DNA of 39,405 bases, from NCBI GenBank assembly GCA_029975165.1, contig JARKPR010000018.1:1-39405 (forward strand), read 5' to 3'. Positions 8,132 to 33,954 of this stretch are shown here, piece after piece. This stretch comes from Selenomonadales bacterium. GTDB lineage: Bacteria; Bacillota; Negativicutes; Sporomusales; UBA7701. The notes beneath the pieces were generated by a model that saw only the letters and a program-made list of their open reading frames with translations, made no database searches and was not told the origin of the DNA. Numbering within the stretch: the stretch's first letter is position 1; the number at the start of each line of letters is the position of its first letter. The position numbers and the translations under genes were made by a program.

Positions 8132-8144
8132 GCGGGAAAGAGGC

Positions 8145-10307: not shown

Positions 10308-10327
10308 ACGCGGCCGGAGGAAAATGC

Positions 10328-10370
10328 CAAGTCCCCGGGAAATTCATTTCCCGGGGACTTGTTTGCTTTT
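10328..10370 (+). terminator. Strong rho-independent terminator of the mod operon
   Basis: A 15-bp stem, CAAGTCCCCGGGAAA (10328-10342) and TTTCCCGGGGACTTG (10347-10361), with a TTCA loop is followed by TTTGCTTTTT. It separates modC from the convergent DUF2325 gene. Confidence 0.92.
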
Positions 10371-10383
10371 TGGGACGCGCCGG

Positions 10384-11988: not shown

Positions 11989-12045
11989 CAGGCGAGCCTC
12001 CCTTCGTTGCAGATTGCACGCGTGTTGCTCCGGATTTGGCGGCAG

Positions 12046-12315
12046 TTACCGCACCCTCAAGGCGGACAATGGCCGGGGACCTGTCGGCAGCTTTTTTTCC
12101 GCCTCGAGGGCGAGGAGAACTTCAGAAAGTTTTGCCAGGTCGCCGGAGAGCGAATCGAGGAAGCGGACGTACTCCTCGAACAAAAAGGTGTTGCGCGTCA
12201 TGCTGGCTTCGCGGATGGCGTCCCGGATGACGGTGACCGCTTCCAGCAGGGCCTTTTCCATGTGGTCGCGGGTGGTTTCCTGTTGTTCGGTATTGTCATT
12301 ATCGTCCCAAGGCAT
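12046..12315 (-). CDS. Small hypothetical protein (89 aa), partner of the DUF2325 gene
   Basis: An 89-residue acidic, helical, cytoplasmic protein beginning MPWDDNDNTEQQ, with amphipathic helices (EKALLEAVTVIRDAIREASM and LDSLSGDLAKLSEVLLALEA). The ATG at 12315 has a strong AGGAGGAACAGCT site; the longer frame upstream of it lies in the untranslated leader. I do not recognise the family. Helical content and adjacency suggest a small adaptor that works with the coiled-coil DUF2325 protein, but this is inference. Confidence 0.75.
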   Translation of the reverse strand: MPWDDNDNTEQQETTRDHMEKALLEAVTVIRDAIREASMTRNTFLFEEYVRFLDSLSGDLAKLSEVLLALEAEKKLPTGPRPLSALRVR

Positions 12316-12687
12316 AGCTGTTCCTCCTAAGGCGGTGTTGCCTGGCAGGGGATCGCTGGAACGGGGCCCGGAAAATGAAATATGCCAAGCCCGACGGATG
12401 TGGAAAGGCTTGGCAACATATCCTGGCGGCCGGCGCAACCTTAAATAGGCGCATAAGAACCTGCGCCGCCGGACGTATCGCTCCTTTCCAAGGGCAGGGA
12501 AGCATAGCCGTTTCCCGCTATGCCGATCGGCCGGATACCTTGCCCGGCAGGGTTTAGGTAGGCCGGCTAAGGAGCACGTATTTGTATTGGCAGGACTGGT
12601 GGGCCGGGGGGATTGGCGTGACCGTTGTCCTGGAACAGCAGGTGTCGTGTTAGAAATCCTATAACATAAACCAATATAAACCAGCTT
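12316..12687 (-). other. Long structured leader of the 89-aa/DUF2325 unit
   Basis: About 370 nt lie between the predicted minus-strand promoter and the small gene, with no convincing coding frame. They contain several hairpins: GCCAAGCC/GGCTTGGC (12384-12391 and 12407-12414), GGCGCA/TGCGCC around 12450, and GCATAGC/GCTATGC (12502-12508 and 12517-12523). I compared it by eye with the c-di-GMP-I, cobalamin, T-box and ZTP consensus cores and saw no match. It may be a riboswitch-like or protein-binding leader, or unrelated hairpins. Confidence 0.4.
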
Positions 12688-12906: not shown

Positions 12907-12948
12907 TAGGATATTGTATCCAATATCCTAAAATCGTATCCAATATCC
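12907..12948. promoter_or_regulatory. Tandem operator just downstream of the promoter
   Basis: TAGGATATTG (12907-12916) and CAATATCCTA (12921-12930) form a perfect 10-bp inverted repeat around TATC. The 13-bp element GTATCCAATATCC occurs twice (12916-12928 and 12936-12948), exactly 20 bp apart, about two helical turns. The core ATTGTATCCAAT resembles TTGTATACAA-like sites of FCD-class GntR repressors, and the operon ends with such a regulator gene (23392). Position over the start region suggests repression. Confidence 0.65.
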
Positions 12949-13133: not shown

Positions 13134-14210
13134 ATGAAGAAGGTTCTGGTAGGTCTAGTGTCGGTCGTTTTGTTGGTTGCTTTTCTGGTAGCGGGCTGCT
13201 CGAGTCCGGCGCCGAAAACCGCGCAGCAAGCACCGGCCGCGGTAGCGGATTCGAAACCTGTCGACCACAGCAAGCTTCCCACCAAGGGAATCGGTACGAG
13301 CATTTCGACCGATGTGAAAGCAAAGAAGCCCTATAAGATCGCGATTATCGTCAAGAACACGACCAATCCGTTCATGGTCAAATCGATCGCCGGCACGCAG
13401 AAGGCCGCCAAGGACATGGGCTTCGAGTGCATTTCCCTGTCGCCTGCCCGGCAGGACAGCATCGACGATCAGGTCAAGATCATGGAAGACGCCATCCAGA
13501 TGGGCGTAAACGGGATCATCCTCCATCCGATCGATTCGAACGGCATTATGCCGGCCATCAGAAAGGCCGAAGCGGCTAACATTCCAGTGGCTGTCATCGG
13601 CACGCCGGCGGCGAAGGAAACCTTCCTGCGGAGCGGGGTCGACTACACGGAGACCGGCGTGCTGATTACCAAGGCCGTTGCTGAGCTGATCGGCAAGAAA
13701 GGCAAGCTGATAATCATCGAAGGGCCTCCGGGGGCGCAGAACGCGATCGAAAGGCTGCAGGGCATCAAGACTGCGCTCAAGGATTACCCGGACATCCAGG
13801 TCGTCGCCTCGCAGACCGCCAACTTCAAGCGCACCGAGGGCATGCAAGTGACCGAAAATCTCCTGCAGAAGTATAAGGACGTCAACGCGATCATCGGCGC
13901 GAACGACGAGAGTGCGCTCGGCGCCGCCCAGGCGGTGAAGGCTGCCGGCCTCAGCGGCAAAGTCGTCATCGGCGGGTTCGACGGCAACCAGGACGGCAGC
14001 GCCGCGATAAAGAGCGGCGAAATGGCTGTTTCTTACAATACCGACCCCTTCGGCTCGACCTATCTGGCTGCGGCCTATATCGTGCAGTTCCTCAACGACG
14101 GGACCAAGCCGCCCAAGTTCTTCGTGCCGTTCCCGTCGGCCCTTGACGACCCGATCATCAACGCCAAGAACATCGATAATTACATTAGCAATATCGCCTG
14201 GTGGAAATAG
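13134..14210 (+). CDS. Sugar ABC transporter substrate-binding lipoprotein (CUT2 type)
   Basis: A 358-residue lipoprotein with lipobox LVAGC (Cys22) and a ribose-type periplasmic binding domain: YKIAIIVKNTTNPFMVKSIA at the first strand, DDQVKIMEDAIQMGVNGIIL, then DVNAIIGANDESALGAAQAV and GGFDGNQDGSAAIKSGEM in the hinge and C-terminal lobe. This is the pentose/hexose-binding RbsB-like family. An AACGGAGGGG site precedes the ATG. It is the first gene of the operon and feeds the tandem-domain ATPase and two permeases downstream. The ligand is unknown; the catabolic genes suggest a branched or C4-C5 sugar or sugar acid. Confidence 0.92.
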   Translation: MKKVLVGLVSVVLLVAFLVAGCSSPAPKTAQQAPAAVADSKPVDHSKLPTKGIGTSISTDVKAKKPYKIAIIVKNTTNPFMVKSIAGTQKAAKDMGFECISLSPARQDSIDDQVKIMEDAIQMGVNGIILHPIDSNGIMPAIRKAEAANIPVAVIGTPAAKETFLRSGVDYTETGVLITKAVAELIGKKGKLIIIEGPPGAQNAIERLQGIKTALKDYPDIQVVASQTANFKRTEGMQVTENLLQKYKDVNAIIGANDESALGAAQAVKAAGLSGKVVIGGFDGNQDGSAAIKSGEMAVSYNTDPFGSTYLAAAYIVQFLNDGTKPPKFFVPFPSALDDPIINAKNIDNYISNIAWWK

Positions 14211-14334: not shown

Positions 14335-14437
14335 CATTTTCGTTCAGCGGTTTTCAGTCTTGAGGGTCGAAACTTTCCCTTTGGTTGGGAATTTGCCTGT
14401 GTTTTTTATGATTTGCAGGAAGTTTCGAGGTGGGAAA

Positions 14438-15952
14438 ATGGACGAGACAATTCTCAGGGTGCATTCGATAACCAAACGGTTTCCCGGCGTAAAAGCCCTG
14501 GACAACATAGACTTCGACCTCAAGCGAGGCGAGGTGCATATTCTGGTCGGCGAGAACGGCGCCGGCAAGAGCACGCTGGCGAAGGTCATTCTCGGCGCTT
14601 ATGTGCCCGACGAAGGGGAGATATTCTTCGAGGGCCAAAAGGTGGCGTTCAAAACCACCCGGGATGCGCTGGAAAAGGGCATTGCCGCTGTTTATCAGGA
14701 ATTTACCCTCTTCCCTTATTTGAATGTGGCCCAGAATATCTTTTTCAACCGGGAGCCCCGCAATAAACTGGGGATCATCGACCACCGGAAGATGGAGCGC
14801 GACGCCGCGGAGCTGCTCCGCTCGCTCAACTGCGAATATATCGACGTCAGGGCGTACGTAAAGAAGCTGAGCGTCGCCGAGCAGCAGATGGTCGAGATCG
14901 CCAAGGCGCTCTCCTATAGTCCCAGGATAATGGTATTCGATGAGCCGACGGCCACGCTGTCGGAACGCGAGGTCGAGTCGCTGTTCGAGCGCATCCACAA
15001 GCTCAAGGCGGCCGGCATCGGCATTATCTATGTGTCCCACCGGATGCAGGAGTTCAAGTTCATCGGCGACCGGATCACGGTGCTGCGGGATGGGAAGAAG
15101 ATCGGCACCGTGGGCATCAACGAAGTAAGCGACAAGGAAATCGTGAAAATGATGGTCGGCCGGGATATCTCGCAGGTATTCCACCGCTCGGCGAATGTTT
15201 TCAGCGGCGAAGTGCTCAAGACCGAAACCCTTTCCGACAGGGCCGGAAGGGTCAAGGAAGCGAGCATCGTCTTGAACAAAGGGGAAATCGTCGGCCTCGC
15301 CGGCCTGGTCGGCGCCGGAAGAACCGAGCTGGCCAAGCTCATCTTCGGTGTCGATCCCATCGGCGGCGGCAAGGTTTATATACACGGCCGGGAAGTAAAC
15401 GTAACTTCCCCGGTCCATATGGTGAAATGCGGGGTGGGGATGGTCTGCGAGGACCGCAAACGCCTCGGTTTGGCCGTCAACGATTCAGTGGCCTGGAATA
15501 TCATGGCGGTGAGCCTCAAGAAGTACTTCCCCAGGTTCATCATTTATTACAACAAGGCCTACGATATCGTGGAGAAGTACAAAACGCAGCTGCGCATCGC
15601 CACGCCCGATGTCCTGCGGAAGTGCAAGTTCCTCAGCGGCGGCAACCAGCAGAAGGTCGTCCTGGCGAAGTGGCTCAGCATGGACACCGATATCCTGATT
15701 TTCGACGAACCGACCCGCGGCATCGATGTGGGCGCGAAGATCGAGATTTACGGCTTGATGGACAAGCTGGCGTCCGAGGGGAAATCGATCCTGATGATTT
15801 CGTCGGAGCTGCCGGAGATAATCGGCATGAGTGACAGAATCTACGTCATTCGCGAGGGAAGGATCGTCGGCGAGTGCAAGCGCGCGGAGTTTTCCACCGA
15901 TGACATCGCTTCGCAGATGCTGGGGATAGTGGGGGATGCGCATGCAAGCTGA
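14438..15952 (+). CDS. Sugar ABC transporter ATP-binding protein, tandem NBD (RbsA-like)
   Basis: A 504-residue protein with two nucleotide-binding domains. The first has Walker A GENGAGKS (38-45), signature region LSVAEQQM and Walker B IMVFDEPTA (about 162-170). The second has a degenerate Walker A GLVGAGRTE (about 289), signature LSGGNQQK (about 399) and Walker B ILIFDEPTRG (about 420). This asymmetry is normal for CUT2 ATPases of the RbsA/MglA group. The start ATG 14438 has GAGGTGGG upstream; the open frame extends further 5' but only through the hairpin region. It overlaps the next permease gene. Confidence 0.93.
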   Translation: MDETILRVHSITKRFPGVKALDNIDFDLKRGEVHILVGENGAGKSTLAKVILGAYVPDEGEIFFEGQKVAFKTTRDALEKGIAAVYQEFTLFPYLNVAQNIFFNREPRNKLGIIDHRKMERDAAELLRSLNCEYIDVRAYVKKLSVAEQQMVEIAKALSYSPRIMVFDEPTATLSEREVESLFERIHKLKAAGIGIIYVSHRMQEFKFIGDRITVLRDGKKIGTVGINEVSDKEIVKMMVGRDISQVFHRSANVFSGEVLKTETLSDRAGRVKEASIVLNKGEIVGLAGLVGAGRTELAKLIFGVDPIGGGKVYIHGREVNVTSPVHMVKCGVGMVCEDRKRLGLAVNDSVAWNIMAVSLKKYFPRFIIYYNKAYDIVEKYKTQLRIATPDVLRKCKFLSGGNQQKVVLAKWLSMDTDILIFDEPTRGIDVGAKIEIYGLMDKLASEGKSILMISSELPEIIGMSDRIYVIREGRIVGECKRAEFSTDDIASQMLGIVGDAHAS

Positions 15953-16907
15953 AGCCGTGCGTGGGAACAGGTTGACCGGCTTTGTATCCGGCCTGCCCCC
16001 CGTGGCCTGGATATTGTTCGTGATGGTGGTCGTTTTCAGTTTTGCGTCGCCCAATTATTTCGAGCTGCGCAATATAAGCAATATCTTCATCCAGTCGATG
16101 CCGCTGATGCTGGTCGCTTTCGCCCAGACGATCATCGTGCTGACGGAGGGCATCGATCTTTCCCTCGGCACGCAGGTGAGTTTCGTAAGTGTGCTGTGGA
16201 TACTCCTCTGCCAGTACGGGGTGCCCATCCTGGCCGCGGCGGCGATAACGGTCGCAGTTTCGATGGGCGTCGGCGCGACGAACGGGCTGATAATCGGCAA
16301 AGGCAAGATTCCGGCGTTTATCGCCACCTTGGGGATGCAATACGTGCTTTATAGCACGAGCCTGCTGCTGACGGCCGGCGCATCGATTTCCTTTTCCGAT
16401 TATCTATTCCAGTTCGTAAGCGAAACGAAGCTGTTGTTCATTCCCCTGCCGGTGTGGATAACGGCCGTGATGTTCTGCCTTACATGGGTGATGCTGTATA
16501 AAACCAGGCTGGGAGCAAGCGTGTTCGCCCTTGGCGGCAATCCGGACGCGGTCACGCTCGCGGGCGTCAACGCCAACAAATCACTGATCAAGATTTACGG
16601 GTTCGCCGGCTTGCTGACCGCGGTCAGCGGCCTGATAATAACCTGCCAGTTGGAATCGGCGCAGCCGATCGTCGGCTCGGGCTGGGAATTCGAGGCAGTG
16701 GCGGCGGCATTGATCGGCGGCACGTCGTTCCGAGAGGGCAAAGGCGGGATCGGCGGCACCATTCTCGGCGTGCTGTTGATCAGCACGCTGAAAAACGGCC
16801 TTAATATCGCCCGAGTGCCGTCGCTTTATCAGAGCGCGATCATCGGGACAATTATTCTGGCTGCGATCATTATCGACGTAATGGTGCGCCGCAGGAGAAA
16901 CGGCTAG
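15936..16907 (+). CDS. Sugar ABC transporter permease 1 (CUT2)
   Basis: A 323-residue membrane protein with 8-10 hydrophobic segments and the family marks LTEGIDLSLGTQVSF and ATNGLIIGKGKIPAFIATLG, plus GGNPDAVTLAGVN and ALIGGTSFREGKGGIGGT near the C-terminus. These are typical RbsC/BPD_transp_2 permease motifs. It overlaps the ATPase gene by 17 bp. ATG 15942 is an alternative start two codons later, with better spacing to the GGGGG upstream. It probably pairs with the second permease as a heterodimer. Confidence 0.92.
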   Translation: MRMQAEAVRGNRLTGFVSGLPPVAWILFVMVVVFSFASPNYFELRNISNIFIQSMPLMLVAFAQTIIVLTEGIDLSLGTQVSFVSVLWILLCQYGVPILAAAAITVAVSMGVGATNGLIIGKGKIPAFIATLGMQYVLYSTSLLLTAGASISFSDYLFQFVSETKLLFIPLPVWITAVMFCLTWVMLYKTRLGASVFALGGNPDAVTLAGVNANKSLIKIYGFAGLLTAVSGLIITCQLESAQPIVGSGWEFEAVAAALIGGTSFREGKGGIGGTILGVLLISTLKNGLNIARVPSLYQSAIIGTIILAAIIIDVMVRRRRNG

Positions 16908-16921
16908 GGGAGGTGGGTACG

Positions 16922-17881
16922 GTGAAAAAATATCTGGACAGTATCAAGCACTCCCGCACGATTTACAGCTTCGTCGGCTTGATGATTATGGTCGTGATAT
17001 CTTCGCTCACAGTCAATAAGTTCATGACCTTCGACAACGTCATCACGATTTTCAGGCAAGCCAGTACCCTGTTCATCCTCAGCGCGGGCCTCACGGCGAC
17101 CATTCTCATGGCCGAGATCGATCTTTCCGTCGGAGCCGCCTCGGGCTTTATCGGCTGCGTGTCCGCCCAGTTCCTTAAGGCGGATTTGCCGGTGCCGATG
17201 GTCTTCCTGCTGGGGATGGCCTTGGGCGCGTTGGTGGGCATGCTTAACGGCTTTCTCGTCGGCACGGTCAAAATGCCGTCGTTTATCGCTACATACGGCG
17301 TCAGCTGGGTTCTGGCGGGCCTGTCGGTCATCGTGATGAACGGGGCGGTTATCTTCGGCCTGCCCGAAGGTTTTACCTGGTTCGGCACCGGGTATGTCGG
17401 GCCGATCCCGGTGATCGTCATCATCGCTTGCATTATCGTGGCGCTGGTGTATTTCCTGTTGCATAGAACGACGTTCGGCCGCGATATCTATTCGTTCGGG
17501 TTTAATCCCGACGCGGCTTTGTATTCGGCTGTGCCGGTAAATAGGACGCTGTACGCGGCGTTCATCCTTTCGGGCATCACGGCGGGCATCGGCGGCCTGC
17601 TGATGATGGCCCGGCTCAACGCGGCCGACGCCACGATGGGCGACGCCTACGGCATGCAGACGATCGCCGCCGTCGTGATCGGCGGCACGTCGCTGCTCGG
17701 CGGCGAGGGCGGGATAGTCGGCACGATTATCGGCGCCTTGCTGCTGACGATTGTCGTCAACGTAATGAACTTGCTGGGGATTTCCTCCTTTGCCCAACCG
17801 ATGGTTGTCGGCCTGCTGATTCTGGCCGTGGTCATGTTCGACACCTATACGCGGGCGATGCAGGAGAAGTTGATTGAATAA
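16922..17881 (+). CDS. Sugar ABC transporter permease 2 (CUT2)
   Basis: A 319-residue RbsC-like permease (MAEIDLSVGAASGFIG, NGFLVGTVKMPSFIATYG, AAVVIGGTSLLGGEGGIVGT). The GTG at 16922 is chosen because GGGGAGG at 16907-16913 is 8 bp upstream; an earlier GTG at 16913 overlaps that site. Two different permeases, as here, are common in CUT2 systems with a single ATPase. The next gene follows after 47 bp. Confidence 0.92.
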   Translation: MKKYLDSIKHSRTIYSFVGLMIMVVISSLTVNKFMTFDNVITIFRQASTLFILSAGLTATILMAEIDLSVGAASGFIGCVSAQFLKADLPVPMVFLLGMALGALVGMLNGFLVGTVKMPSFIATYGVSWVLAGLSVIVMNGAVIFGLPEGFTWFGTGYVGPIPVIVIIACIIVALVYFLLHRTTFGRDIYSFGFNPDAALYSAVPVNRTLYAAFILSGITAGIGGLLMMARLNAADATMGDAYGMQTIAAVVIGGTSLLGGEGGIVGTIIGALLLTIVVNVMNLLGISSFAQPMVVGLLILAVVMFDTYTRAMQEKLIE

Positions 17882-17928
17882 AGGCGAAGTGGAAGCAATT
17901 ATAGTCATTCAGAATGGAGGAATTGTTT

Positions 17929-18732
17929 ATGAAGAACTTGACGGTAAGGCCTATCAACACGGGTTATGTGCCCACATATCCGCTTCAGTATCATTACCAC
18001 CACTCCTGCGCGCCTTATCTCAAAAACGTGCCGACCGAAAAGGTGCCGCTGCCGGTGTTCACCTTCCTGGTCGAGGGCGGCGACCAGCTGCTGCTGGTCG
18101 ATACGGGGATGTCATGGACGGAAAGGGCCAACGATTATCACCATCCCGGCTCCTGGCAGGATCCCGGCATGGCTATCCACGAGCAGCTCGCCAAGATCGG
18201 CTACAAGCCCGAGGATATCGATATCGTGGTCTTTACCCATCTGCATTGGGACCACATGTTCTACATGGAGAAATTCACGAAGGCTACCTTGATCGCCCAC
18301 GAACGGGAGTGGGCGTTCGCCAACGATCCGATCCCCCTGTATTACAAGTCTTACGAGCATCCCGCCCTCGGCATCACGCGGCCTTTCGAGGGGCTGACGT
18401 TCAAGACGGTGAAGGGCGAGACGGAGATCATGCCCGGCGTAAGGGTGTTCGAGTCGTTCGGGCATTCCCCCGGCCATATGTCGGTGGAGGTCGACACGAA
18501 GGACGGCAGCTATATCTGCGCCGGCGATTCGATCTTCGTCAAGGGCAATCTCAACGAGATTCCGGAGCTGCATTACAATATCACCCCGCCGGGGCGGTTC
18601 TACAATATCGTCGAGTCCTGGAAGAGCATCGAGTACCAGAAGGCGCGCGCCAAAGACCCCAGCTTCCTGTTGCTCTGCCATGACAAGGAGCTGGAGGAAC
18701 GGATCAAGACAACGCCGATTTTCGGCAAATAA
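17929..18732 (+). CDS. MBL-fold hydrolase, N-acyl-homoserine-lactonase family
   Basis: A 267-residue metallo-beta-lactamase-fold protein with the dinuclear metal motif HLHWDH at residues 104-109, SFGHSPGHMS later, and a C-terminal LLLCHD. The AttM/AhlB-like family hydrolyses lactones. ATG 17929 has GGAGG 9 bp upstream; the in-frame ATG at 17914 lies before it. In this operon the most sensible job is opening a sugar lactone taken up by the ABC transporter or made from it, rather than quorum quenching; this is inferred from context. It is related in fold but not closely similar to the MBL protein at 2815. Confidence 0.85.
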   Translation: MKNLTVRPINTGYVPTYPLQYHYHHSCAPYLKNVPTEKVPLPVFTFLVEGGDQLLLVDTGMSWTERANDYHHPGSWQDPGMAIHEQLAKIGYKPEDIDIVVFTHLHWDHMFYMEKFTKATLIAHEREWAFANDPIPLYYKSYEHPALGITRPFEGLTFKTVKGETEIMPGVRVFESFGHSPGHMSVEVDTKDGSYICAGDSIFVKGNLNEIPELHYNITPPGRFYNIVESWKSIEYQKARAKDPSFLLLCHDKELEERIKTTPIFGK

Positions 18733-18754: not shown

Positions 18755-18788
18755 GAGCCACACCTTTCCGTTGCGCGGGGTGTGGCTC
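18755..18788 (+). terminator. Intercistronic hairpin
   Basis: GAGCCACACC (18755-18764) and GGTGTGGCTC (18779-18788) form a perfect 10-bp stem; a second small palindrome CCGGCC/GGCCGG (18733-18746) precedes it. There is no T-run, so it is more likely an mRNA-processing or stabilising element inside the operon than a full terminator. Confidence 0.45.
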
Positions 18789-18835: not shown

Positions 18836-20083
18836 ATGAAGACTGTTGCCATAATCGCCAGTTGCGATTCGAAGCTCCAAGAGGTTAGGCATGTTAAGAA
18901 ATTTATCGAAAGTACCGGCCAGCGGGTGCTGGTGATCGATATCAGCATCGGGCCCCGCCAGGTCGACGCGGGCGATATTCGCCGCGAGGAGGTCATCGCC
19001 GCTGCCGGCCGGCAATGGCAGGACGTAAGGGACCTGAGCAAGGGCGAGCTGATGGCGATCGTCGCCGAAGGGGCCGAAAAGCTGGTTCCCACGTTGTACG
19101 CGCAGGGGAAATTCGACGCCGTATTCGCTATGGGCGGCGTGCAGAATACGACGGTGGCCGTAGGCGCCATGAAGAGGCTGCCCATCGGCGTCCCCAAGGT
19201 GGTACTGTCGACCGTGGCCAGCGGCAACAGGACCTTCGAGCCGCTGGTCGGCACGAAGGATATTGTCGTCATGCCTTCGGTGGCCGATATTTCCGGGGTC
19301 AATACCGTGACGAGAACGGTGATGGAGAACGCCGCCGCGTGCGTGGTCGGCATGGTCAGCTATGCCGGCCGGCCACTGGGCGCCAGCGGCCGGCTGGTCG
19401 TCGGCACGACCCTCATGGGGGTGACGAACGACGGCGTATGCAGCGCCATCGACCACCTTGTCGCCAAAGGGATCGAGACTATCGGCTTCCATTCGACCGG
19501 TGTCGGCGGCCGGGCGATGGAAGAGCTTGTCGCCGGGGGCGTCGTCACCGCGGTGATGGATCTGACCATTCACGAGATCACGTCCGAGTATTTCGGCGGC
19601 GGCTTCTCCTACGGGGCGCTGAACAGGCTGACCGCGCTGTGCGAGGCGGGCATCCCCCTGCTGGTGTCGCCGGGCGGCCTGGATTTCGTCGATTACCCGC
19701 TCGACAATCTGCCGGCGGATATCGATAAACGCAAGTATATCCGCCATAACGCCCAGCTTGCCCATATCAAGATTCTTCGGGAGGAAGCCCCGGACGTGGC
19801 CCGGATCGTCGCTGAGCGGCTCAACAGGAGCGTCGGCGAGGTTACGCTGCTTATCCCCACGAACGGCTTCCGGAAGAATACCCGGCCGGGCGAGCCGCTG
19901 TACGACAAGGAGGTCGACGACGCCATCGTCGCCACTCTCCTGGCGAATATCACCACTGACAGGGTAATCGTCAAATACGTCGACGCCAACCTCAACGAGG
20001 AAGCGTTCGGCGTGGCGGCCGCGGAGGAGATGATCGCCATCCTCAAACGCCGCGGGAAACTGGACGCCAACTTCGGAAGGTGA
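18836..20083 (+). CDS. Tm-1-like ATP-binding domain protein (UPF0261)
   Basis: A 415-residue protein of the UPF0261/Tm-1 N-terminal family, named after the ATP-binding half of the tomato Tm-1 resistance protein. Visible family motifs are VAIIASCDSK at the N-terminus, FAMGGVQNTTVAVGAMKRLP, STVASGNRTFEPLVGTKDI and the C-terminal NTRPGEPLYDKEVDDAI. Plant Tm-1 carries a second TIM-barrel domain, and bacterial members often have that domain as the neighbouring gene; here it is absent and the next gene, 6 bp away, is a RuBisCO-like protein. The biochemical function of the family is not settled. Because the pathway needs a phosphorylated substrate and no other kinase is seen, a role in ATP-dependent activation of the substrate is an attractive but unproven idea. 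Confidence 0.88.
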   Translation: MKTVAIIASCDSKLQEVRHVKKFIESTGQRVLVIDISIGPRQVDAGDIRREEVIAAAGRQWQDVRDLSKGELMAIVAEGAEKLVPTLYAQGKFDAVFAMGGVQNTTVAVGAMKRLPIGVPKVVLSTVASGNRTFEPLVGTKDIVVMPSVADISGVNTVTRTVMENAAACVVGMVSYAGRPLGASGRLVVGTTLMGVTNDGVCSAIDHLVAKGIETIGFHSTGVGGRAMEELVAGGVVTAVMDLTIHEITSEYFGGGFSYGALNRLTALCEAGIPLLVSPGGLDFVDYPLDNLPADIDKRKYIRHNAQLAHIKILREEAPDVARIVAERLNRSVGEVTLLIPTNGFRKNTRPGEPLYDKEVDDAIVATLLANITTDRVIVKYVDANLNEEAFGVAAAEEMIAILKRRGKLDANFGR

Positions 20084-20089
20084 CGTGAA

Positions 20090-21343
20090 ATGTTGGATTA
20101 CTTCGATTATCCTTACAGCCGTCCGGAACAGCTGGCCGGGGACTATATAGTCGCTACCTATCTCGTTTACGGCACGGATTGCGGCAACGTGCTGAAAAAA
20201 GCGGGCAATTTCGCTGTCGGCCAGACGGTCGGCACGTGGATAAAGATTCCCGGCGTGACGCCGGAAATGGTGGAGAGCTACCAGGCCCGGATACTGTCGC
20301 TGCAGCTGGTTCCGGCCGGCGAAGAGCAGGTGGCCGTCGTGCGGCTGGCTTTCCCGCTGGCCAATCTCGCCGGCAATTTCGCCATGATGTTTACGGCCCT
20401 AATGGGCAACGACGTGTCGACGGCCCTGCGGACGAAGCTCGTCGACCTCGAACTGGCCGGCAACGCCGCCGCGGCCTTCAAGGGCCCGGCGCAGTCGATG
20501 GACGACCTGCGCGGACTCACGGGCGTATACGGCCGGCCGCTCATCCTCAATATGATCAAGCCCTGCACCGGCTTTTCGCCGGCGGACGGGGCCAAGCTTT
20601 TTTACCAGGCGGCCCTCGGCGGCGTCGACCTCATCAAGGACGACGAGCTGTTGGGCAACACCGGCTACAATCAGGTCGCCGACCGCGTGACCGAGTATAC
20701 CAAGGCGGCGAAAGAGGCGGCGGAGAGCACCGGCAAGGAAACGATCTATTTCGTCAATATAACCGACCGGCCGGCGCGGATGAGGGATAACGCCAAGGCG
20801 GCCATCGCGGCGGGAGCGAAGGGCTGCCTGGTCAACTTCGTGTTCGCCGGCATGGACGCGCTGGCGGAGATTTGCGAGGAGTTCGGCGACAGGATGTTTA
20901 TCATGGCCCATTACGCCGGCGTGGGCGCGATGAACTGGCAGCGGGGCGGCATCGCCAACCCGGTTTATATCGGCCTGATCCCGCGGCTGGCGGGCGCGCA
21001 TGCCGTCATGACGATGTTCGTCGGCGAGAACAACGCCGCGGACAGATACGATTTTTTGAAGACTGTGCAGGCCCAGCGGCTGCCGCTGCAAAACATCGGG
21101 CCGGTGGTGACGACGGTCGGCGGCGGGGTGACGCCGCTCAACCTGGCGTCGATATACCACGATCTCGGCAAAGACGCCATCCTCGGCGTCGGGGGCGCCA
21201 TTCAGGGCCATCCCGGCGGCGCGGCCTGCGGCGCCAAAGCGACCATGAGCGCGGTGAAGGCGGCGGTCGCCGGCATATCGCTCGACGAGGCGGCCGAAAG
21301 CTGCGAGCATCTGCAAGCGGCGATCGACTGCTGGCGCAAGTGA
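20090..21343 (+). CDS. RuBisCO-like protein, probable oxo-acid phosphate decarboxylase
   Basis: A 417-residue RuBisCO large-subunit-like protein. The TIM-barrel active site keeps the first lysine (Lys157 in MIKPCTG, equivalent to RuBisCO Lys175), the carbamylated lysine and Mg ligands (Lys183, Asp185, Glu186 in IKDDE), the phosphate-binding loops VGGGV (343-347) and GVGGAIQG (366-373), and His304. Lys177 is Cys159, and the loop-6 lysine (Lys334) is Glu313, so it cannot be a true RuBisCO. MtnW enolase activity is unlikely because no methionine-salvage gene is nearby. With a TIM-type and an RpiB-type isomerase downstream, the best match is the 3-oxo-isoapionate 4-phosphate decarboxylase group (OiaX-like), which yields L-erythrulose 1-phosphate. 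The exact substrate here is inferred. Confidence 0.85.
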   Translation: MLDYFDYPYSRPEQLAGDYIVATYLVYGTDCGNVLKKAGNFAVGQTVGTWIKIPGVTPEMVESYQARILSLQLVPAGEEQVAVVRLAFPLANLAGNFAMMFTALMGNDVSTALRTKLVDLELAGNAAAAFKGPAQSMDDLRGLTGVYGRPLILNMIKPCTGFSPADGAKLFYQAALGGVDLIKDDELLGNTGYNQVADRVTEYTKAAKEAAESTGKETIYFVNITDRPARMRDNAKAAIAAGAKGCLVNFVFAGMDALAEICEEFGDRMFIMAHYAGVGAMNWQRGGIANPVYIGLIPRLAGAHAVMTMFVGENNAADRYDFLKTVQAQRLPLQNIGPVVTTVGGGVTPLNLASIYHDLGKDAILGVGGAIQGHPGGAACGAKATMSAVKAAVAGISLDEAAESCEHLQAAIDCWRK

Positions 21344-21374: not shown

Positions 21375-21839
21375 ATGAAGGCGAATACCATCGTGTTGGG
21401 GTGCGACAACGCTGCCGTTGACATGAAGAATATGGTGGCGAAGTTTCTCGAAAGCAAGGGGATTACCGTCGAGGACGTCGGCGTGGCCGACGCCGGCGAC
21501 GGGACTTTTTACCCCCTGGTGGCCCAAAAGGCGTGCGAGAGGATAATCGCCAGCGGCTATGCCAAGGACGGCATCCTGATCTGCGGCACCGGCATCGGTA
21601 TGGCGATGACCGCCAACAAGTTCAAGGGCATCAGGGCCGCCGTGTGCCACGACAATTTCTCGGCCGAGCGGTCGCGCCTGAGCAACGACGGCAATGTGCT
21701 GTGCATGGGGGCGCGGGTGATCGGCCCCGAGCTGGCCAAGAAGATCGTGGCCGAGTGGATCAGCCTGTCGTTCGTGGACGGCAGCTCGACGCCCAAGGTG
21801 GCGGCCATGAAAGGCATCGACGAACAGAATATGAAATAA
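21375..21839 (+). CDS. RpiB/LacAB-family sugar-phosphate isomerase
   Basis: A 154-residue RpiB-type isomerase with the active-site Cys70 in ICGTGIGMAMTANK, Asp11 in GCDNAAVD, and CHDNFSAERSRLSNDGNVLCMG. The family interconverts aldose and ketose phosphates. Beside a TIM homologue it resembles EryI/DerI, the D-erythrulose 4-phosphate isomerase that forms D-erythrose 4-phosphate, more than a housekeeping ribose-5-phosphate isomerase. An AGAAGGGAGAAG site precedes the ATG. The gene is 14 bp before the TIM homologue, so the two isomerases are probably made together. Confidence 0.87.
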   Translation: MKANTIVLGCDNAAVDMKNMVAKFLESKGITVEDVGVADAGDGTFYPLVAQKACERIIASGYAKDGILICGTGIGMAMTANKFKGIRAAVCHDNFSAERSRLSNDGNVLCMGARVIGPELAKKIVAEWISLSFVDGSSTPKVAAMKGIDEQNMK

Positions 21840-21853: not shown

Positions 21854-22642
21854 ATGCGAAAATTAGCCAAGCTTTATATCGGCACCAATACGAAGATGTA
21901 CAAAACCGTGGCCGACACGGTCGCGTTCCTGACCGAGCTCGGCCGGCTGACGGCCGATATCGACCGCCAGGCGTTCGAGCTGTTCGTGATCCCGTCGTTC
22001 ACCGCGCTGGAGAGCGCCCGCAAATGCGTGCCGCCGGCGCTGGTCAAGATCGGCGCCCAGAACATGCACTGGGAGGACGAGGGCCAGTTCACAGGGGAAA
22101 TTTCGCCGCCGATGCTCAAGGAGCTCGGCGTCGAAATCGTCGAGATCGGCCACTCCGAGCGGCGCCACGTATTCGGCGAGAGCGACGCCGACGAGAACAA
22201 AAAGGTGCTGGCCGCCCTGAAGCACGGTTTTACCCCCCTGCTGTGCGTCGGCGAAACGCTGGCGCAGAAAGAGCTCGGCATCAGCGACGAGAGCTTGAGC
22301 ATTCAACTGAAAATTGGTTTGAGCGGCGTTGCCAGGGAGGATGCCCGCAAGCTTTGGGTCGCCTACGAGCCGGTCTGGGCCATCGGCGTGAACGGCATCC
22401 CGGCTTCCGCCGGCTACGCCGCCGAAAAACAGTGGGTAATCAAAAGGGTGCTCGGCGACATATTCGGCGACGCCGGCCGGGAGATACCCGTTTTTTACGG
22501 CGGGAGCGTGAATCCCGGCAACGCCGCGGAGCTTATCGCCCAGCCCTACATCGACGGCCTGTTCATCGGTCGCAGCGCCTGGAACGCCTGCGCCTTCAAC
22601 GAGCTGATCAGGAAGGTCGTCCCCGTTTTCGCGGGCAAGTGA
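21854..22642 (+). CDS. Triose-phosphate-isomerase homologue, probable L-erythrulose-1-phosphate isomerase
   Basis: A 262-residue TIM-fold isomerase. The catalytic set is intact: Asn12 and Lys14 (GTNTKMYK), His100 (IGHSERR), Glu172 (AYEPVWAIG) and the phosphate loop YGGSVN (215-220). It departs from housekeeping TIM in the first loop, NTKMY instead of NWKMN, and in loop 6, VNGIPASAG instead of TGKTAT. Such differences mark the EryH/LerI branch, which converts L-erythrulose 1-phosphate to D-erythrulose 4-phosphate. The adjacent RpiB-type gene supplies the next step. A glycolytic TIM role is therefore unlikely. Confidence 0.85.
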   Translation: MRKLAKLYIGTNTKMYKTVADTVAFLTELGRLTADIDRQAFELFVIPSFTALESARKCVPPALVKIGAQNMHWEDEGQFTGEISPPMLKELGVEIVEIGHSERRHVFGESDADENKKVLAALKHGFTPLLCVGETLAQKELGISDESLSIQLKIGLSGVAREDARKLWVAYEPVWAIGVNGIPASAGYAAEKQWVIKRVLGDIFGDAGREIPVFYGGSVNPGNAAELIAQPYIDGLFIGRSAWNACAFNELIRKVVPVFAGK

Positions 22643-22695: not shown

Positions 22696-23298
22696 ATGAC
22701 CGATATCGATAGGATCAAGGACGAGATGATACTGGCCGCCTCGCGGGCTTATACGCGGGGCATTCAGACCGGCAACGGCGGCAATTTCAGCGCCCGCGTC
22801 CCCGGCAAGGACCTGATGGTTCTCAAATCCAGCGGCGGCTCGTTCATGGATGCCACCCGCGACAATCTGCTGATTACCGATTTTGCTGGCAAGCTCGTCG
22901 AGGGCAACGGCAAGCCCACGCGTGAAGCGCTGCTCCACGGCTTTATCTATCAGGCCGCGCCGCAGGTGAACGGCGTCATGCACTGCCATTCCCCCTGGGC
23001 GATCGCCTGGGCCGCCACGGGGCAAGACCTCGACAAGGTCACCTACCACCAGGAGCTCAAGTTCGGCTGCCCGATCGCCGTCATCGATGTAAAGTCGCCG
23101 GTCGTCAGGGCCGAGGACTTTCCGCTGATCGAGGCGTTGTTAAAGAAGTATCCGCAGCTCCCCGGGTTCGTGCTGGCCGATCACGGGGTGGTCGCCGTGG
23201 GCGACAATATAGTCAATGCGGAGCACAACGCGGAATTGATCGAGGAGACTGCGCAGGTGGCCTTTTTGAAAGCGCTGGCCGCCAAGCTGGCGATATGA
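22696..23298 (+). CDS. Class II aldolase/adducin-family protein
   Basis: A 200-residue member of the class II aldolase family (fuculose-phosphate aldolase, ribulose-phosphate epimerase, OtnC-type decarboxylase). Zinc ligands are visible as His96 and His98 in HCHSPWA and His163 in ADHGVVAVG; the catalytic Glu is probably Glu77 in PTREALLH. GNGGNFSAR matches the family phosphate loop. The reaction could be aldol cleavage, epimerisation or decarboxylation, and the sequence alone does not decide. Next to a RuBisCO-like protein and tetrose-phosphate isomerases, a four- or five-carbon phosphate substrate is likely. GAGCTGACGCAT precedes the ATG. Confidence 0.87.
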   Translation: MTDIDRIKDEMILAASRAYTRGIQTGNGGNFSARVPGKDLMVLKSSGGSFMDATRDNLLITDFAGKLVEGNGKPTREALLHGFIYQAAPQVNGVMHCHSPWAIAWAATGQDLDKVTYHQELKFGCPIAVIDVKSPVVRAEDFPLIEALLKKYPQLPGFVLADHGVVAVGDNIVNAEHNAELIEETAQVAFLKALAAKLAI

Positions 23299-23391
23299 CG
23301 CCTGATGTGGTAAAATCTGTTTAATGATAGAACACAGAACTGAAACGGTAATATTTATGTGTTTGACTTGCGCAAGGAGGGCAGAGAAACA

Positions 23392-24156
23392 ATGCTGATA
23401 GAAGGATCGCACGGTTCGGGAAAGATCAAATCGAAGCGGATGCCCGAGCTTGTGATGGAGCAGCTTATGGACTGGCTGATGGACGGCACCATTTCCATGG
23501 GCGACAGGCTGAATGCCGAGGATCTCGCGGCCAGGATGGGCGTGAGCAGGATGCCGGTGCGCGAAGCCCTGAAGTCCATGGAAAAGTCGGGCATCGTCGA
23601 ATCCATTCCGTATGTGGGCGCCAGGGTCGTCGACCTTTCCATGCCCGATGTCGCGCAGATATATATCATAAGACAGGCGCTCGAACCCTTGGCGGCTTAT
23701 TATGCGTGCCAGAATATCACCGATAAAAAGATCGAAATCATCGAGGAAATCAACGAAAAGCTCGCCGATGTGCTCGACCAGCCGCAGCCCGACGGCAAGA
23801 ACATCTTTTTGCTCAACCGGGAGTTCCATTTCGCGATTTATAATGTGAGCGGGATGAAGCATCTGGTGGATACGATCGCCGTGCTGTGGTACAAACTCGC
23901 GTTCTTCAAGCTTATTTACGGGCGGAAGTATGTCAAGGACAAGAGCAGCGCCGGGCGGAAGATCGCGGAGCACCGCAATTTTATCGCCCTGCTCAAGAAC
24001 CGGGATTGCGACGGCGTGAGAGACGCCATCGAAAAGACGCTGAACAGGCGGCTGGAGAAGATCCAAAATGCCGAGGACCAAGACCCCGACATCATCACAT
24101 CGGATCATCCCCCGGCGTCCTGGTACGCCAAAAGGAATCCGGGCAGGCTGTCGTAG
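23392..24156 (+). CDS. GntR-family (FCD domain) transcriptional regulator
   Basis: A 254-residue regulator. Residues about 17-80 are the GntR winged helix (LNAEDLAARMGVSRMPVREA), followed by an all-helical FCD ligand-binding domain (LNREFHFAIYNVSG ... EHRNFIALLKNRD) with His residues that usually bind a metal. ATG 23392 is chosen from the AAGGAGGGCAG site 9-15 bp upstream. It is the last gene of the ABC/RuBisCO-like operon and is the natural candidate to bind the tandem operator at 12907-12948; a sugar acid or sugar phosphate would be the inducer. Confidence 0.9.
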   Translation: MLIEGSHGSGKIKSKRMPELVMEQLMDWLMDGTISMGDRLNAEDLAARMGVSRMPVREALKSMEKSGIVESIPYVGARVVDLSMPDVAQIYIIRQALEPLAAYYACQNITDKKIEIIEEINEKLADVLDQPQPDGKNIFLLNREFHFAIYNVSGMKHLVDTIAVLWYKLAFFKLIYGRKYVKDKSSAGRKIAEHRNFIALLKNRDCDGVRDAIEKTLNRRLEKIQNAEDQDPDIITSDHPPASWYAKRNPGRLS

Positions 24157-27067: not shown

Positions 27068-28048
27068 ATGGAACGGATGAGTGGCAAGGTGGCCGTATGC
27101 GGCATGGTGTTGGCGGCTGTGGCCCTGGGAGCGGCCGGCTGTTTTTTGGGCACGAAGGAGGAGGCCAAGCCGCCGGCCCAGCCGATCGTCTTCCTCATCC
27201 CCGCCGGGCCGGGAGGGGGCAACGATCTGACGGTGAGGGCCCTCATCCCCGGCATGCGCCAGGCGCTCGGCCAGGAACTCATCGCCGAGAACAAGCCGGC
27301 CGGCAAGGGCGCGGTGGCGGCGGCCGAGATCATGAACGGCCGGCCGGAGGACAATAAGTTGTATTTCAATTCGCAGACCGTCTTGCTGATGCCGTACGGC
27401 GGCATGCCGGACGTGAAGTTGGAGCGCTTCCAGCCCGTGGCCCAGGTGGTGGAGGACATGGGGGCGATAATCGTCCGCCAGGACGCCCCGTACGACACGC
27501 TGCCCGAGTTCATCGCCGCCGCCAAGCGGCGGGGCGGGAAGATCCGCGTGGCCCACAACGGGGTCGGCAGCCTGTGGCATCTGGCGGCCATCAGGTTTTC
27601 GCAGGCCGCCGGCGTGGATTTCAAGTATTGCGCCTACACCTCCGGCGGGCGGCAGATGCTGGGGGCGCTTGTGGACGGCGAGGTCGAGGTGTGCGTCATA
27701 AGCCCGTCCGAGTCGAAGCCGTTCATCGAGGCCAAGAAGGTCAAGGTGCTGGCGGTGATGAGCGACAGGCGCCATACCGTCGTGCCCAACGTGCCGACCT
27801 GCCGGGAGGTGGGCCTCGACACGGTCTTCAACGTCTGGCGGGGCGTGTTCACGACGGCCGGCGTGAGCGAGGAACGGCTGAACGCTCTGGATGCGGCGGT
27901 GCGGCAGGCGGTGGCGACGGAGGAGTTCCAGGCTTTCGCCCGCAACAACGGCCTGCCGGTGAAATTCCGCGGCCACGAGGAGTTCAAGAGGATCGTGTAC
28001 GAGCAGCGGGAGATGTACGCGAAGCTGTTCGGCGAGATAGACAAGTAG
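27068..28048 (+). CDS. tctC: TctC-type substrate-binding lipoprotein 1 of a tripartite tricarboxylate transporter
   Basis: A 326-residue TctC/Bug-family binding protein; lipobox GAAGC gives lipidated Cys25. Hallmarks are FLIPAGPGGGNDLTVRALIP, NSQTVLLMPYG, the hinge APYDTLPEFI, and VWRGVFTTAGV near the C-terminus. TctC proteins bind citrate or related di- and tricarboxylates, amino or sugar acids, and deliver them to the TctAB membrane pair. It is closely related to the next gene, so this transporter has two binding proteins. GGAGGGCGACG precedes the ATG. 26867-27067 contains a hairpin and otherwise nothing I recognise. Confidence 0.9.
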   Translation: MERMSGKVAVCGMVLAAVALGAAGCFLGTKEEAKPPAQPIVFLIPAGPGGGNDLTVRALIPGMRQALGQELIAENKPAGKGAVAAAEIMNGRPEDNKLYFNSQTVLLMPYGGMPDVKLERFQPVAQVVEDMGAIIVRQDAPYDTLPEFIAAAKRRGGKIRVAHNGVGSLWHLAAIRFSQAAGVDFKYCAYTSGGRQMLGALVDGEVEVCVISPSESKPFIEAKKVKVLAVMSDRRHTVVPNVPTCREVGLDTVFNVWRGVFTTAGVSEERLNALDAAVRQAVATEEFQAFARNNGLPVKFRGHEEFKRIVYEQREMYAKLFGEIDK

Positions 28049-28080
28049 CCCCAAGGGGCATACCCCGACGCTGTGCGGGG
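28048..28080 (+). other. Small intercistronic hairpins between tandem tctC genes
   Basis: GCCCC (28048-28052) / GGGGC (28055-28059) overlaps the last base of the first tctC stop, and CCCCG (28063-28067) / CGGGG (28076-28080) is followed by AAAAAAAGG. They are short and probably affect mRNA stability only. Confidence 0.35.
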
Positions 28081-28099
28081 AAAAAAAGGAGGAATCATC

Positions 28100-29065
28100 G
28101 TGAGTGGAACCCGGAAAATGCTGTGCCTCGTAATGCTGCTGGTGTTCGCGGCTGTCGTAGCCGGCTGCGGCGGAGGCAGCGACAAGCCCAAGTACCCGCA
28201 GGGCGACGTTACCTTCCTCATCCCTCAAGGACCGGGCGGCGGCAACGACATGACCGTTCGCGCCCTTATCCCCGCCATGAAGAAGGAGCTGAACGGCAAC
28301 GTCGTTCCCGTGAACAAGGCCGAGGCCAGGGGCGCGGTTGCGGCCAGCGATCTGGCGTCCGCCAAGCCGGACGGCCAGAAGCTGTATTTCAATTCGCAGT
28401 CGCTGCTGCTCATGCCGTACGCCGGGGTGGACGTCAAGCTAGAGAAGTTCCAGCCGGTAGCCCAGGTGGTCGAGGATACCGCCTCGATCATCGTCAAGGC
28501 CGACGCCCCGTGGAAGACGCTCGACGAATTCATCAAGTACGCCCAGGCCAATAAGCTCAAGGTGGCCCACAACGGCAACGGCGCTCTGTGGCATTTGTCG
28601 GCCCTCCAGCTCGCCAAAGCCATCAAGGCGGATTTCAATTACATCGCCTACCCGAGCGGCGGCGCCCAGATGCTGACCGCCCTCGCCTCCGGCGAGGTCG
28701 ACTTGTGCGTCATCAGCCCGTCGGAGTCCAAGGCCCTCATAGACAGCGGCCGCCTGAGAGTGCTGGCGGTGATGAGCGACACCCGCCACGCCGTCGTGCC
28801 CAACGTGCCGACCTGCAAGGAACTCGGCCTCGACCAGACTTTCCCGGTATGGCGCGGCATCTTCACGACCGCCGGCACGCCGAAGGAGACGCTGGCCCTC
28901 CTCGAAAAGGCCATCAAGACGGCCACCGAGTCGCCGGAATTCACGACTCTGGCGAAGAACAACGGTTTCCCGATCAAGTTCCGCGGCGTGAACGAGTTCT
29001 CCGCTTTCGTCAAGGACGAGACGGAAAAATACAAGAAGCTGATGGCGGATATCAAGCTCAAGTAG
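28100..29065 (+). CDS. tctC: TctC-type substrate-binding lipoprotein 2 (tandem paralogue)
   Basis: A 321-residue TctC-family lipoprotein with lipobox VVAGC (Cys23). It parallels the preceding gene in nearly every motif (FLIPQGPGGGNDMTVRALIP; NSQSLLLMPYAG; VWRGIFTTAGT), indicating a tandem duplication. GTG 28100 is chosen because AAAGGAGG ends 7 bp upstream; the frame could extend nine codons further but without a ribosome site. The two copies may bind different ligands for one TctAB channel, or one may signal to the membrane sensor regulator upstream. Confidence 0.9.
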   Translation: MSGTRKMLCLVMLLVFAAVVAGCGGGSDKPKYPQGDVTFLIPQGPGGGNDMTVRALIPAMKKELNGNVVPVNKAEARGAVAASDLASAKPDGQKLYFNSQSLLLMPYAGVDVKLEKFQPVAQVVEDTASIIVKADAPWKTLDEFIKYAQANKLKVAHNGNGALWHLSALQLAKAIKADFNYIAYPSGGAQMLTALASGEVDLCVISPSESKALIDSGRLRVLAVMSDTRHAVVPNVPTCKELGLDQTFPVWRGIFTTAGTPKETLALLEKAIKTATESPEFTTLAKNNGFPIKFRGVNEFSAFVKDETEKYKKLMADIKLK

Positions 29066-29081
29066 ACGGCGCGATAAAGCG

Positions 29082-29136
29082 GCGCCGCAAGCAAACGGGC
29101 ACCGCCGGGGTCCGGCGGCGGAGTTGCTTGCGGCGC
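29082..29136 (+). terminator. Strong stem-loop between tctC2 and tctB
   Basis: GCGCCGCAAGCAA (29082-29094) pairs with TTGCTTGCGGCGC (29124-29136), enclosing a second stem CCGCCGG/CCGGCGG (29102-29108 and 29112-29118). No T-run follows. It probably shields or attenuates the transcript so that binding proteins exceed membrane components. Confidence 0.65.
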
Positions 29137-29164
29137 AGCCTACGCGCCCAAAGGAGGCTAAGCG

Positions 29165-29617
29165 GTGAAAGATTTTATCCTGGCCATAGTCGCGGCCGGC
29201 CTGGCGGTTTTCATCTACGTCGATTCCCGGACCTTCGCGGCTCCCCAGGGCGGTCTGGCGAAAGATCCCGCCCTGTATCCGCAGATGCTCGCGCTCATTC
29301 TGGCCCTGCTGGCAGTGGCCCTGGCTGTCAACGTTATCAGGGGCAAGCGGCTGAACGAGAAAATCGTCCTGGACCGTCAGGCGCTTTTCAACGTCGGCAG
29401 GCTTGTGGTCATTCTCTGCCTGTATGTTTTCGCCATCGTGTATGTCGGCTTTCCCGTTTCCACGGTGCTGTTCATTTATGTCGGCGTCGTCGCTCTCGGC
29501 GGCAGCCGGCTGACGGCGGCAAAGCTCTGCCTGCCGGTCGCTCTGGCCTTGTATGTGGTTTTTTTCGTCCTCTTCCAGATGCCGATGCCTGTCGGGAAAT
29601 TGTGGGAAGGGTTGTGA
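29165..29617 (+). CDS. tctB: TctB, small membrane subunit of the tripartite tricarboxylate transporter
   Basis: A 150-residue protein with four hydrophobic segments (ILAIVAAGLAVFIYV; LALILALLAVALAV; LVVILCLYVFAIVYVGF; VALALYVVFFVLF), the expected size and topology for TctB. The GTG start follows AAAGGAGGCTAAGC. It sits between the binding proteins and TctA, as in other TTT operons. TctB supports the large TctA channel; it has no recognised catalytic residues. Confidence 0.88.
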   Translation: MKDFILAIVAAGLAVFIYVDSRTFAAPQGGLAKDPALYPQMLALILALLAVALAVNVIRGKRLNEKIVLDRQALFNVGRLVVILCLYVFAIVYVGFPVSTVLFIYVGVVALGGSRLTAAKLCLPVALALYVVFFVLFQMPMPVGKLWEGL

Positions 29618-29623
29618 TGCACC

Positions 29624-31156: not shown

Positions 31157-31196
31157 CTGCGGAGACTACACGGACAATCATTAAGGGAGGCGCACC

Positions 31197-31964: not shown

Positions 31965-31986
31965 GACCGGCAAGGAGGAAGGCATT

Positions 31987-32874: not shown

Positions 32875-32884
32875 GGGCGCCCCG

Positions 32885-33787: not shown

Positions 33788-33797
33788 GGATACCTCC

Positions 33798-33833: not shown

Positions 33834-33838
33834 TTCAC

Positions 33839-33867: not shown

Positions 33868-33954
33868 TATAATTAATCCAAGCATTCCGTCAATAGAGCC
33901 GGCAGAAATCGGTTCGCCAATCACGGCCACGGCCGAAAAAAAGGAGAGTAATAT

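Follow-up and report, generated by a model that had tools for sequence, protein, structure and literature searches.

A likely UPF0261 kinase encoded beside a RuBisCO-like protein in a Selenomonadales operon

An operon of eleven proteins

The DNA analysed here, which we call the window, is a stretch of 39,405 nucleotides from a Selenomonadales bacterium (contig JARKPR010000018.1 of assembly GCA_029975165.1). On its + strand lies an operon of eleven proteins in the order ABC-lactonase-UPF0261-RLP-RpiB-TIM-AldII-GntR, at the centre of which the gene for a UPF0261 (Tm-1-like) protein (18836..20083), a proposed ATP-dependent small-molecule kinase, is followed by that for a RuBisCO-like protein (RLP; 20090..21343). 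UPF0261 is a widespread bacterial relative of Tm-1, the tomato virus-resistance protein, yet its matching models in NCBIfam continue to bear the name 'hypothetical protein'. A preliminary description of this locus, made from the sequence alone, proposed that the UPF0261 protein is the missing kinase partner of the RLP, pointing to the closeness of the two genes and to an operon devoid of FGGY, DUF1537, PfkB or GHMP kinases. Both observations stand: the genes are separated by 6 bp (20084-20089), with a GGAAGG stretch at the 3′ end of the UPF0261 gene, and none of the eleven proteins of the operon matches a sugar-kinase family in Pfam. The UPF0261 protein is covered over its full length by PF06792 (E 3.7e-52, 177 bits) and PF23189 (E 1.4e-62, 211 bits), each with a cut-off of 27, and the RLP matches PF00016 (E 1.9e-39, 136 bits).

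Upstream of this pair, on the same strand, are genes for a sugar-type ABC substrate-binding protein (13134..14210; PF13407, E 2.5e-59), a transporter ATPase with two ABC domains (14435..15952; PF00005; its ATG start at 14435 was picked by eye), two permeases (15936..16907 and 16913..17881; both PF02653) and a lactonase-like protein of the metallo-beta-lactamase fold (17914..18732; PF00753, E 2e-21) whose top NCBIfam matches, AiiA and 4-pyridoxolactonase, are both far under cut-off. Downstream, also on the + strand, are an RpiB-family sugar-phosphate isomerase (21375..21839; PF02502), a triosephosphate-isomerase-family protein (TIM; 21854..22642; PF00121; ATG start at 21854 picked by eye), a class II aldolase-family protein (AldII; 22696..23298; PF00596, E 3.5e-35) and a GntR/FCD regulator (23359..24156; PF00392 and PF07729), whose open reading frame starts with GTG and for which a later ATG may be the true start. 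Between the lactonase-like and UPF0261 genes we noted by eye an inverted repeat, GAGCCACACC / GGTGTGGCTC (18755-18788), without a T tract; this is a possible RNA processing or attenuation site.

The RLP keeps K157, K183, D185 and E186 of the RuBisCO catalytic domain, the last three being the K-D-E metal site, and the alignment shows T49, G344-G346 and G368/G369, which we take to be the RuBisCO C1-phosphate site, kept in the window protein and in 10 non-MtnW companions. Its step is probably of the enolisation type, either a decarboxylation or an isomerisation. The RuBisCO-like fold and the carbamate-metal residues are shared with MtnW, but K98 of MtnW (in a G-K motif), presumably its general-base lysine, is absent from the window RLP, which has G-N-D instead; with a score of 257.4 bits against a cut-off of 409, an MtnW-type enolase is ruled out. 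OiaX, the 3-oxo-isoapionate-4-phosphate decarboxylase, is an RLP that acts on a phosphorylated keto-acid and is followed by TIM- and RpiB-type isomerases; however, the window RLP reaches 130.4 bits against a cut-off of 700 for NF042437, and the kinase family differs. The RpiB and TIM proteins are each one of three family members in the genome, and a higher-scoring TIM copy is encoded on another contig. The RpiB protein passes the general models NF004051 (162.5 bits, cut-off 135) and TIGR01120 and, at 142.2 bits, does not reach the cut-off of 240 for the D-erythrulose-4-phosphate isomerase model DerI/EryI (NF051858). With three TIM-family genes in the genome, the operon's copy might be an L-erythrulose-1-phosphate isomerase (LerI/EryH), a TIM-family paralogue beside the usual TIM, but the protein also scores above the cut-off of an ordinary TIM model (303.7 bits against 293).

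Distribution and architecture of UPF0261-RLP loci

To see how regularly the two genes go together, both families were searched in one draw of 398 genomes from the phylum (E <= 1e-30 for the RLP, E <= 1e-3 for UPF0261). The RLP is present in 45 of these and UPF0261 in 68, of which 66 are above the family cut-off. Eighteen genomes, the window's included, carry both, against 7.7 expected (Fisher p 8e-5, a guide only because the genomes are related), and without exception the two matches share a contig and a strand and are separated by less than 2 kb; in one of the 18 (G031) the RLP contains an internal stop. Conserved adjacency, which the preliminary description had put forward as a check, is observed throughout the co-carrying genomes at this distance. 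A separate scan of genome contigs with an RLP alignment, blind to UPF0261, gave 494 confirmed matches; among the best 80 RLP loci, 29 contain UPF0261, and in 18 of these it immediately precedes the RLP, in the same orientation and with no more than about 105 bp between them. All or nearly all genes of the window operon recur in metagenome-assembled genomes (MAGs) that are clostridial, Christensenella-type, Aneurinibacillus-labelled or Planctomycetota-labelled (loci L033 and L034 were left out of the gene clustering as copies of L045 and L047).

Two architectures emerge from these loci. In type A, that of the window, the order lactonase-UPF0261-RLP-RpiB-TIM-AldII is accompanied by sugar ABC genes; in type B, found at 11 loci (L036-L039, L059, L068, L071, L073, L080, L084 and L087), UPF0261 lies near both an RLP gene and a gene for a PF09370 TIM-barrel protein. 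An Amidohydro_2-cluster gene is present in 8 of the 11 type B loci, TIM and RpiB homologues in five (L036, L059, L073, L080, L087) and an AldII homologue in none, and in L068 and L071 UPF0261 is on the opposite strand. Both types therefore share UPF0261 and the RLP, and TIM and RpiB are found in type A as well as in some type B loci. In a UPF0261 tree of 73 rows, those of type B group together in a single clade of eleven (support 100/99), the window falls in a 20-row clade that has no TIM-barrel partner (98/93), and L046, L066, L093 and L098 make up a second RLP-linked clade that also has none (100/99); L046 and L066 come from cultured strains of Butyricicoccus faecihominis and Paenibacillus pasadenensis. 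Because these RLP-linked clades are separate, the association between UPF0261 and the RLP seems, on this phylogeny, to have arisen more than once.

The preliminary description had also stated that a TIM-barrel protein is the usual partner of bacterial UPF0261 and that here the RLP fills its place. The former agrees with our data, as a PF09370 homologue lies in the 1.5 kb flanks of 21 of 30 UPF0261 loci, a biased set consisting of the best-scoring matches of the phylum search. The latter is unsupported, because the eleven UPF0261 genes of the type B clade have both partners nearby; in addition, UPF0261 genes exist (L149-L155) whose short flanks contain neither a TIM-barrel nor an RLP homologue and in whose genomes the phylum search gave no RLP match. 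The window genome, which is 96% complete, has no PF09370 match.

In some genomes the type A operon is divided. In those of L069 and L072, RLP-RpiB-TIM is on a different contig from a complete ABC-lactonase-UPF0261-AldII-GntR operon (L162, L163), and further lactonase-UPF0261-AldII sets are present (L161; L159, L160); in the L082 genome a single set of this kind (L158) is separate from the RLP cluster, so that each genome contains one to three sets off the RLP-RpiB-TIM contig (L158-L163). This suggests that the split halves are functionally linked, with several feeder modules for an RLP set.

Evidence on phosphorylation and regulation

A sequence search of the PDB (E <= 1e-3) returned three distinct Tm-1 sequences and 9MPY. 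Among bacterial UPF0261 proteins we found no other whose structure has been solved with a ligand than the one in this entry: Saro_1862, a UPF0261 domain protein of Novosphingobium aromaticivorans, with acetovanillone bound. Residues 4-401 of the window protein align with the 9MPY chain (E 1.2e-51; 30-32% identity). An AlphaFold2 model of the window protein (mean pLDDT 91.8) matches Tm-1 with Z 42-43, that is, the same fold, and 9MPY with Z 32.7 (rmsd 7.2 over 392 residues); in the fold searches, rows outside the UPF0261 family are partial matches. MarK is described as a single-component kinase that starts acetovanillone catabolism in N. aromaticivorans (PMC13101465), and from the ligand, organism, date and an author (Bingman, a crystallographer) we infer that MarK is very probably Saro_1862. 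The earlier view that the chemistry of bacterial UPF0261 proteins is not established is accordingly outdated, since MarK, very probably the protein of 9MPY, is called a kinase in print.

If this identity holds, the likeness to the window protein extends to the same two-domain family, aligned over the full length, and to the single-component character attributed to MarK, since the window genome has no PF09370 partner. In contrast, MarK acts on acetovanillone-type phenols and appears to belong to another clade, whereas the window protein is encoded among sugar-ABC, RLP, RpiB and TIM genes; as a likely kinase, it would apparently serve carbohydrate rather than phenol catabolism. Plant Tm-1 and the bacterial UPF0261 + PF09370 pairs also differ from the window system, because there the PF09370 TIM barrel is a fusion partner or a neighbour (PMC5028733). 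Two further systems were considered as UPF0261 precedents and ruled out: HpeHI and AcvAB resemble MarK in using the same kind of phenols, but HpeHI, the other acetovanillone kinase that has been well studied, is an enzyme of a different kind: it is described as a dikinase of two components that resembles rifampin phosphotransferase in its ATP-grasp and swivel domains (PMC12167813), and AcvAB as its homologue (PMC9618137).

If UPF0261 supplies the phosphate, relatives that lack it should carry another phosphorylating device. We examined this exchange on an RLP tree of 84 rows (fragments L075, L089 and L093 left out), in which the window belongs to an 18-row clade (100/100). Two of its rows, L050 and L051, end at the 5′ edge of the RLP, and UPF0261 is in the locus of 15 of the 16 upstream-complete ones, including L046, in which it is 5.2 kb from the RLP, and L048, in which it is a fragment at the contig edge. 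The remaining row, L049 from a Megamonas MAG, has genes for phosphotransferase system (PTS) components IIA, IIB and IIC that end about 20 bp before the RLP; its 14.2 kb locus contains no ABC, lactonase or UPF0261 homologue, and its genome contains no UPF0261. The IIC and IIA proteins match galactitol-type NCBIfam models under their cut-offs, and IIB was assigned because it clusters with the IIB of L061, a locus in which all three components (IIA, IIB and IIC) have Pfam matches.

Farther out in the tree, PTS genes are found in L058, L061, L062 and L064 (near-identical Erysipelotrichaceae), L082 and L101, and FGGY genes without UPF0261 in L035, L063, L067, L078, L088, L090, L095, L097 and L107. 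When 13 such loci (six PTS, seven FGGY) were checked genome-wide, 11 genomes had no UPF0261 at all; L058, L061 and L064 among them are near-identical, and most of these genomes come with no completeness value. UPF0261 was found in all three positive controls (L076, L083, L085). L082 was ruled out as a clean PTS swap, as its UPF0261 elsewhere is accompanied by lactonase and AldII homologues. Overall, 16 of the 32 loci that lack UPF0261 and are not MtnW-type have a detected device (eight FGGY, seven PTS, one PfkB). With MtnW-type loci set apart, a Fisher test gave p 0.003 over 61 loci that are related and not independent. Detection covered UPF0261, FGGY, EIIC/EIIA of one PTS type, five PfkB seeds (two of which gave a match, in L079 only) and one DUF1537 seed (no match); because it was limited to these, other kinases may be missed. 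A device at every RLP locus is rejected as a rule, since 16 of the 80 loci plus 19 MtnW-type loci show none of the detectable kinds. The MtnW-type loci are one Paenibacillaceae clade, typed through L104, in which MtnW, MtnX and MtnB are above cut-off; their clusters c9, c12 and c13 were considered as MtnK/MtnA and ruled out as proline-synthesis-type or aldehyde-dehydrogenase-type genes.

Four of the FGGY loci (L035, L088, L090 and L107) also contain a set of FAD-dependent dehydrogenase genes (DAO, Pyr_redox and a small third gene; the Pfam matches are from L035 only). This gene context suggests that some RLPs may serve polyol catabolism.

A palindrome upstream of the operon, GGATATTGTATCCAATATCC (12909..12928, with a weaker second copy at 12930-12947), is a candidate operator of the GntR/FCD regulator. 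Its core, TATTGKATMCAATA, recurs upstream of the operons in L032, L040, L053, L056, L057, L076, L162 and L163 and upstream of the GntR genes of L040 and L042 (shuffles used upstream regions of about 450 bases for six loci and 900 for L056 and L057); no candidate operator was found in L041, L044 or L047 with up to two mismatches. The window has two core matches against 0.06 expected, and nowhere else in the genome does the 18-mer occur without mismatch than at 12909-12928. The other genomic matches, with up to three mismatches, are on contigs C85, C3, C26 and C79 and at the second window copy; such distant matches are partly chance, because a backwards control gave 3 sites per strand versus 7.

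The preliminary description named a co-regulated kinase encoded elsewhere as a finding that would speak against its proposal. The window genome encodes two FGGY, five PfkB and one DUF1537 proteins (contigs C4, C81, C98, C26, C42, C36 and C2), and no such kinase came to light, within a comparison limited to these genes and to one candidate operator: none lies within 19 kb of a candidate operator match. GlpK and ThiD matches are above cut-off, and the others are gluconokinase-like, KDG-kinase-like, HldE-like (two) and one unnamed PfkB. The DUF1537 gene (L165, G000:C2:138500-152500) is near LarA-type racemase, KdgT permease and Amidohydro_2 genes, with no PdxA match on its contig.

Elsewhere in the window, a second gene group (27068-38952) comprises tripartite tricarboxylate transporter genes (three TctC, two TctA) and genes of HpcH/HpaI aldolase, 6PGDH/3-hydroxyisobutyrate-dehydrogenase, RraA and Ldh_2 types. 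Three long + strand open reading frames without a Pfam match (5241-6293, 10324-11370 and 11554-12327), putative genes, have an ABC ATPase gene and a pair of SBP_bac_11 genes (7316-8951) in their vicinity.

A proposed pathway and its alternatives

We consider it probable that the UPF0261 protein phosphorylates a small molecule with ATP, most likely as a single-component kinase of the MarK type, and that the phosphate ester enters the chain formed by the RLP, AldII, TIM and RpiB. The kinase reading itself is likely, and better founded than the preliminary description could know, and it may hold across several RLP lineages. We envisage that the ABC transporter would import an unphosphorylated compound, which the lactonase-like protein may open and the UPF0261 protein would then phosphorylate. 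The resulting ester would pass to the RLP, AldII and the dedicated TIM and RpiB paralogues, in an order and from a substrate that we can only propose; the RLP, with its carbamate-metal site and phosphate-binding region, would perform the enolisation-type step, and TIM and RpiB could interconvert a tetrulose phosphate towards D-erythrose 4-phosphate, an end product modelled on the erythritol and apiose pathways.

Several observations weigh against this proposal. The step from MarK to Saro_1862 is our own deduction, the known acceptors of MarK are aromatic (PMC13101465), and the MarK sequence lies outside the UPF0261 clade of the window, on a long branch (2.08) that joins L156 (97/90). The L049 row is also on a long branch, firmly within its clade and a 6-row subgroup (100/99) and weakly placed in its exact position (95/35), and its exchange is that of a whole module, because the PTS replaces the ABC and lactonase genes as well. 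The genomes of L082 (PTS) and L078 (FGGY) carry UPF0261 elsewhere, and UPF0261 and FGGY occur together in 4 of the 80 loci (L047, L056, L085 and L098, the last with its FGGY gene adjoining an L-arabinose isomerase gene). The other 16 of the 32 loci show no device, two of them being cut at the RLP and four being under 6.5 kb, and the 19 MtnW-type loci have no detected device either, in a comparison that used no MtnK model; an RLP locus therefore need not carry its own kinase. Finally, no operator precedes the RLP clusters of L069, L072 and L082, and there are UPF0261 modules with AldII and no RLP alongside.

These last modules bear on the strongest competing explanation, in which UPF0261 is a kinase whose product goes to AldII, and the RLP, TIM and RpiB act later on another intermediate. 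Because UPF0261 and AldII are together while the RLP is on another contig in the genomes of L069, L072 and L082, AldII may be the direct consumer of the UPF0261 product, and two of the sets found off the RLP-RpiB-TIM contig are complete operons. Such a route would mirror the 3-oxo-tetronate route, in which a kinase is followed by an OtnC-type decarboxylase, with UPF0261 replacing the DUF1537 kinase; AldII scores 79 bits with the OtnC model NF043034, whose cut-off of 250 is not reached, and in L154 UPF0261 is accompanied by ADH and AldII homologues in a genome (G013) for which the phylum search gave no RLP match. However, UPF0261 and the RLP go together without AldII in type B, because none of its 11 loci shows an AldII homologue, and we regard this explanation as plausible and still doubtful. 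The original proposal thus divides: a kinase role is favoured by 9MPY/MarK and by the PTS of L049, and direct feeding of the RLP is not proven in view of the split modules of L069, L072 and L082.

Three other explanations seem less likely. UPF0261 might use ATP without forming a stable ester, as in acyl-phosphate activation, ligation or ATP-driven dehydration of an acid, which is compatible with our having found a single bacterial member whose structure and ligand are known and with fold-search matches outside the family that indicate no one reaction; MarK is nevertheless called a kinase (PMC13101465), and in L049 a PTS occupies the position of the module. We think this explanation unlikely. 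It is quite unlikely, too, that a kinase encoded elsewhere phosphorylates the RLP substrate while UPF0261 has an unrelated job: the genome has FGGY, PfkB and DUF1537 genes from which such an enzyme could come, and MtnW-type loci likewise lack a kinase of the detectable kinds, but most of these kinases have another likely job and none is near a candidate operator match. That the RLP takes the place of the PF09370 subunit as physical partner of UPF0261 would fit the missing PF09370 gene and the 6 bp spacing in the window genome; with one clade of eleven UPF0261 genes neighbouring both proteins, other UPF0261 genes with neither in their short flanks, and MarK described as single-component (PMC13101465), we consider it very improbable.

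Going back to the proposal of a kinase that feeds the RLP chain, we tentatively suggest, as something that could well prove wrong, that UPF0261-RLP operons encode an undescribed route in which UPF0261 phosphorylates a sugar acid or keto-acid, possibly from a lactone, and the RLP decarboxylates or isomerises the phosphate towards D-erythrose 4-phosphate. Its carriers would be many anaerobic Bacillota and, for the other architecture, also Actinomycetota. No such pathway was found in the open-licence papers searched, among which none that mentions both 'RuBisCO-like protein' and 'UPF0261' was apparent. If the route is real, a reaction would be assigned to a large group of unassigned RLPs, giving these RuBisCO-like proteins a testable substrate class, and UPF0261 kinases would extend from phenols to carbohydrates. 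A carbohydrate-acid kinase of this kind would give annotators an extra kinase family for sugar-acid operons that seemingly have none, and the finding may also hint at what the plant Tm-1 family does in the cell apart from resisting viruses.

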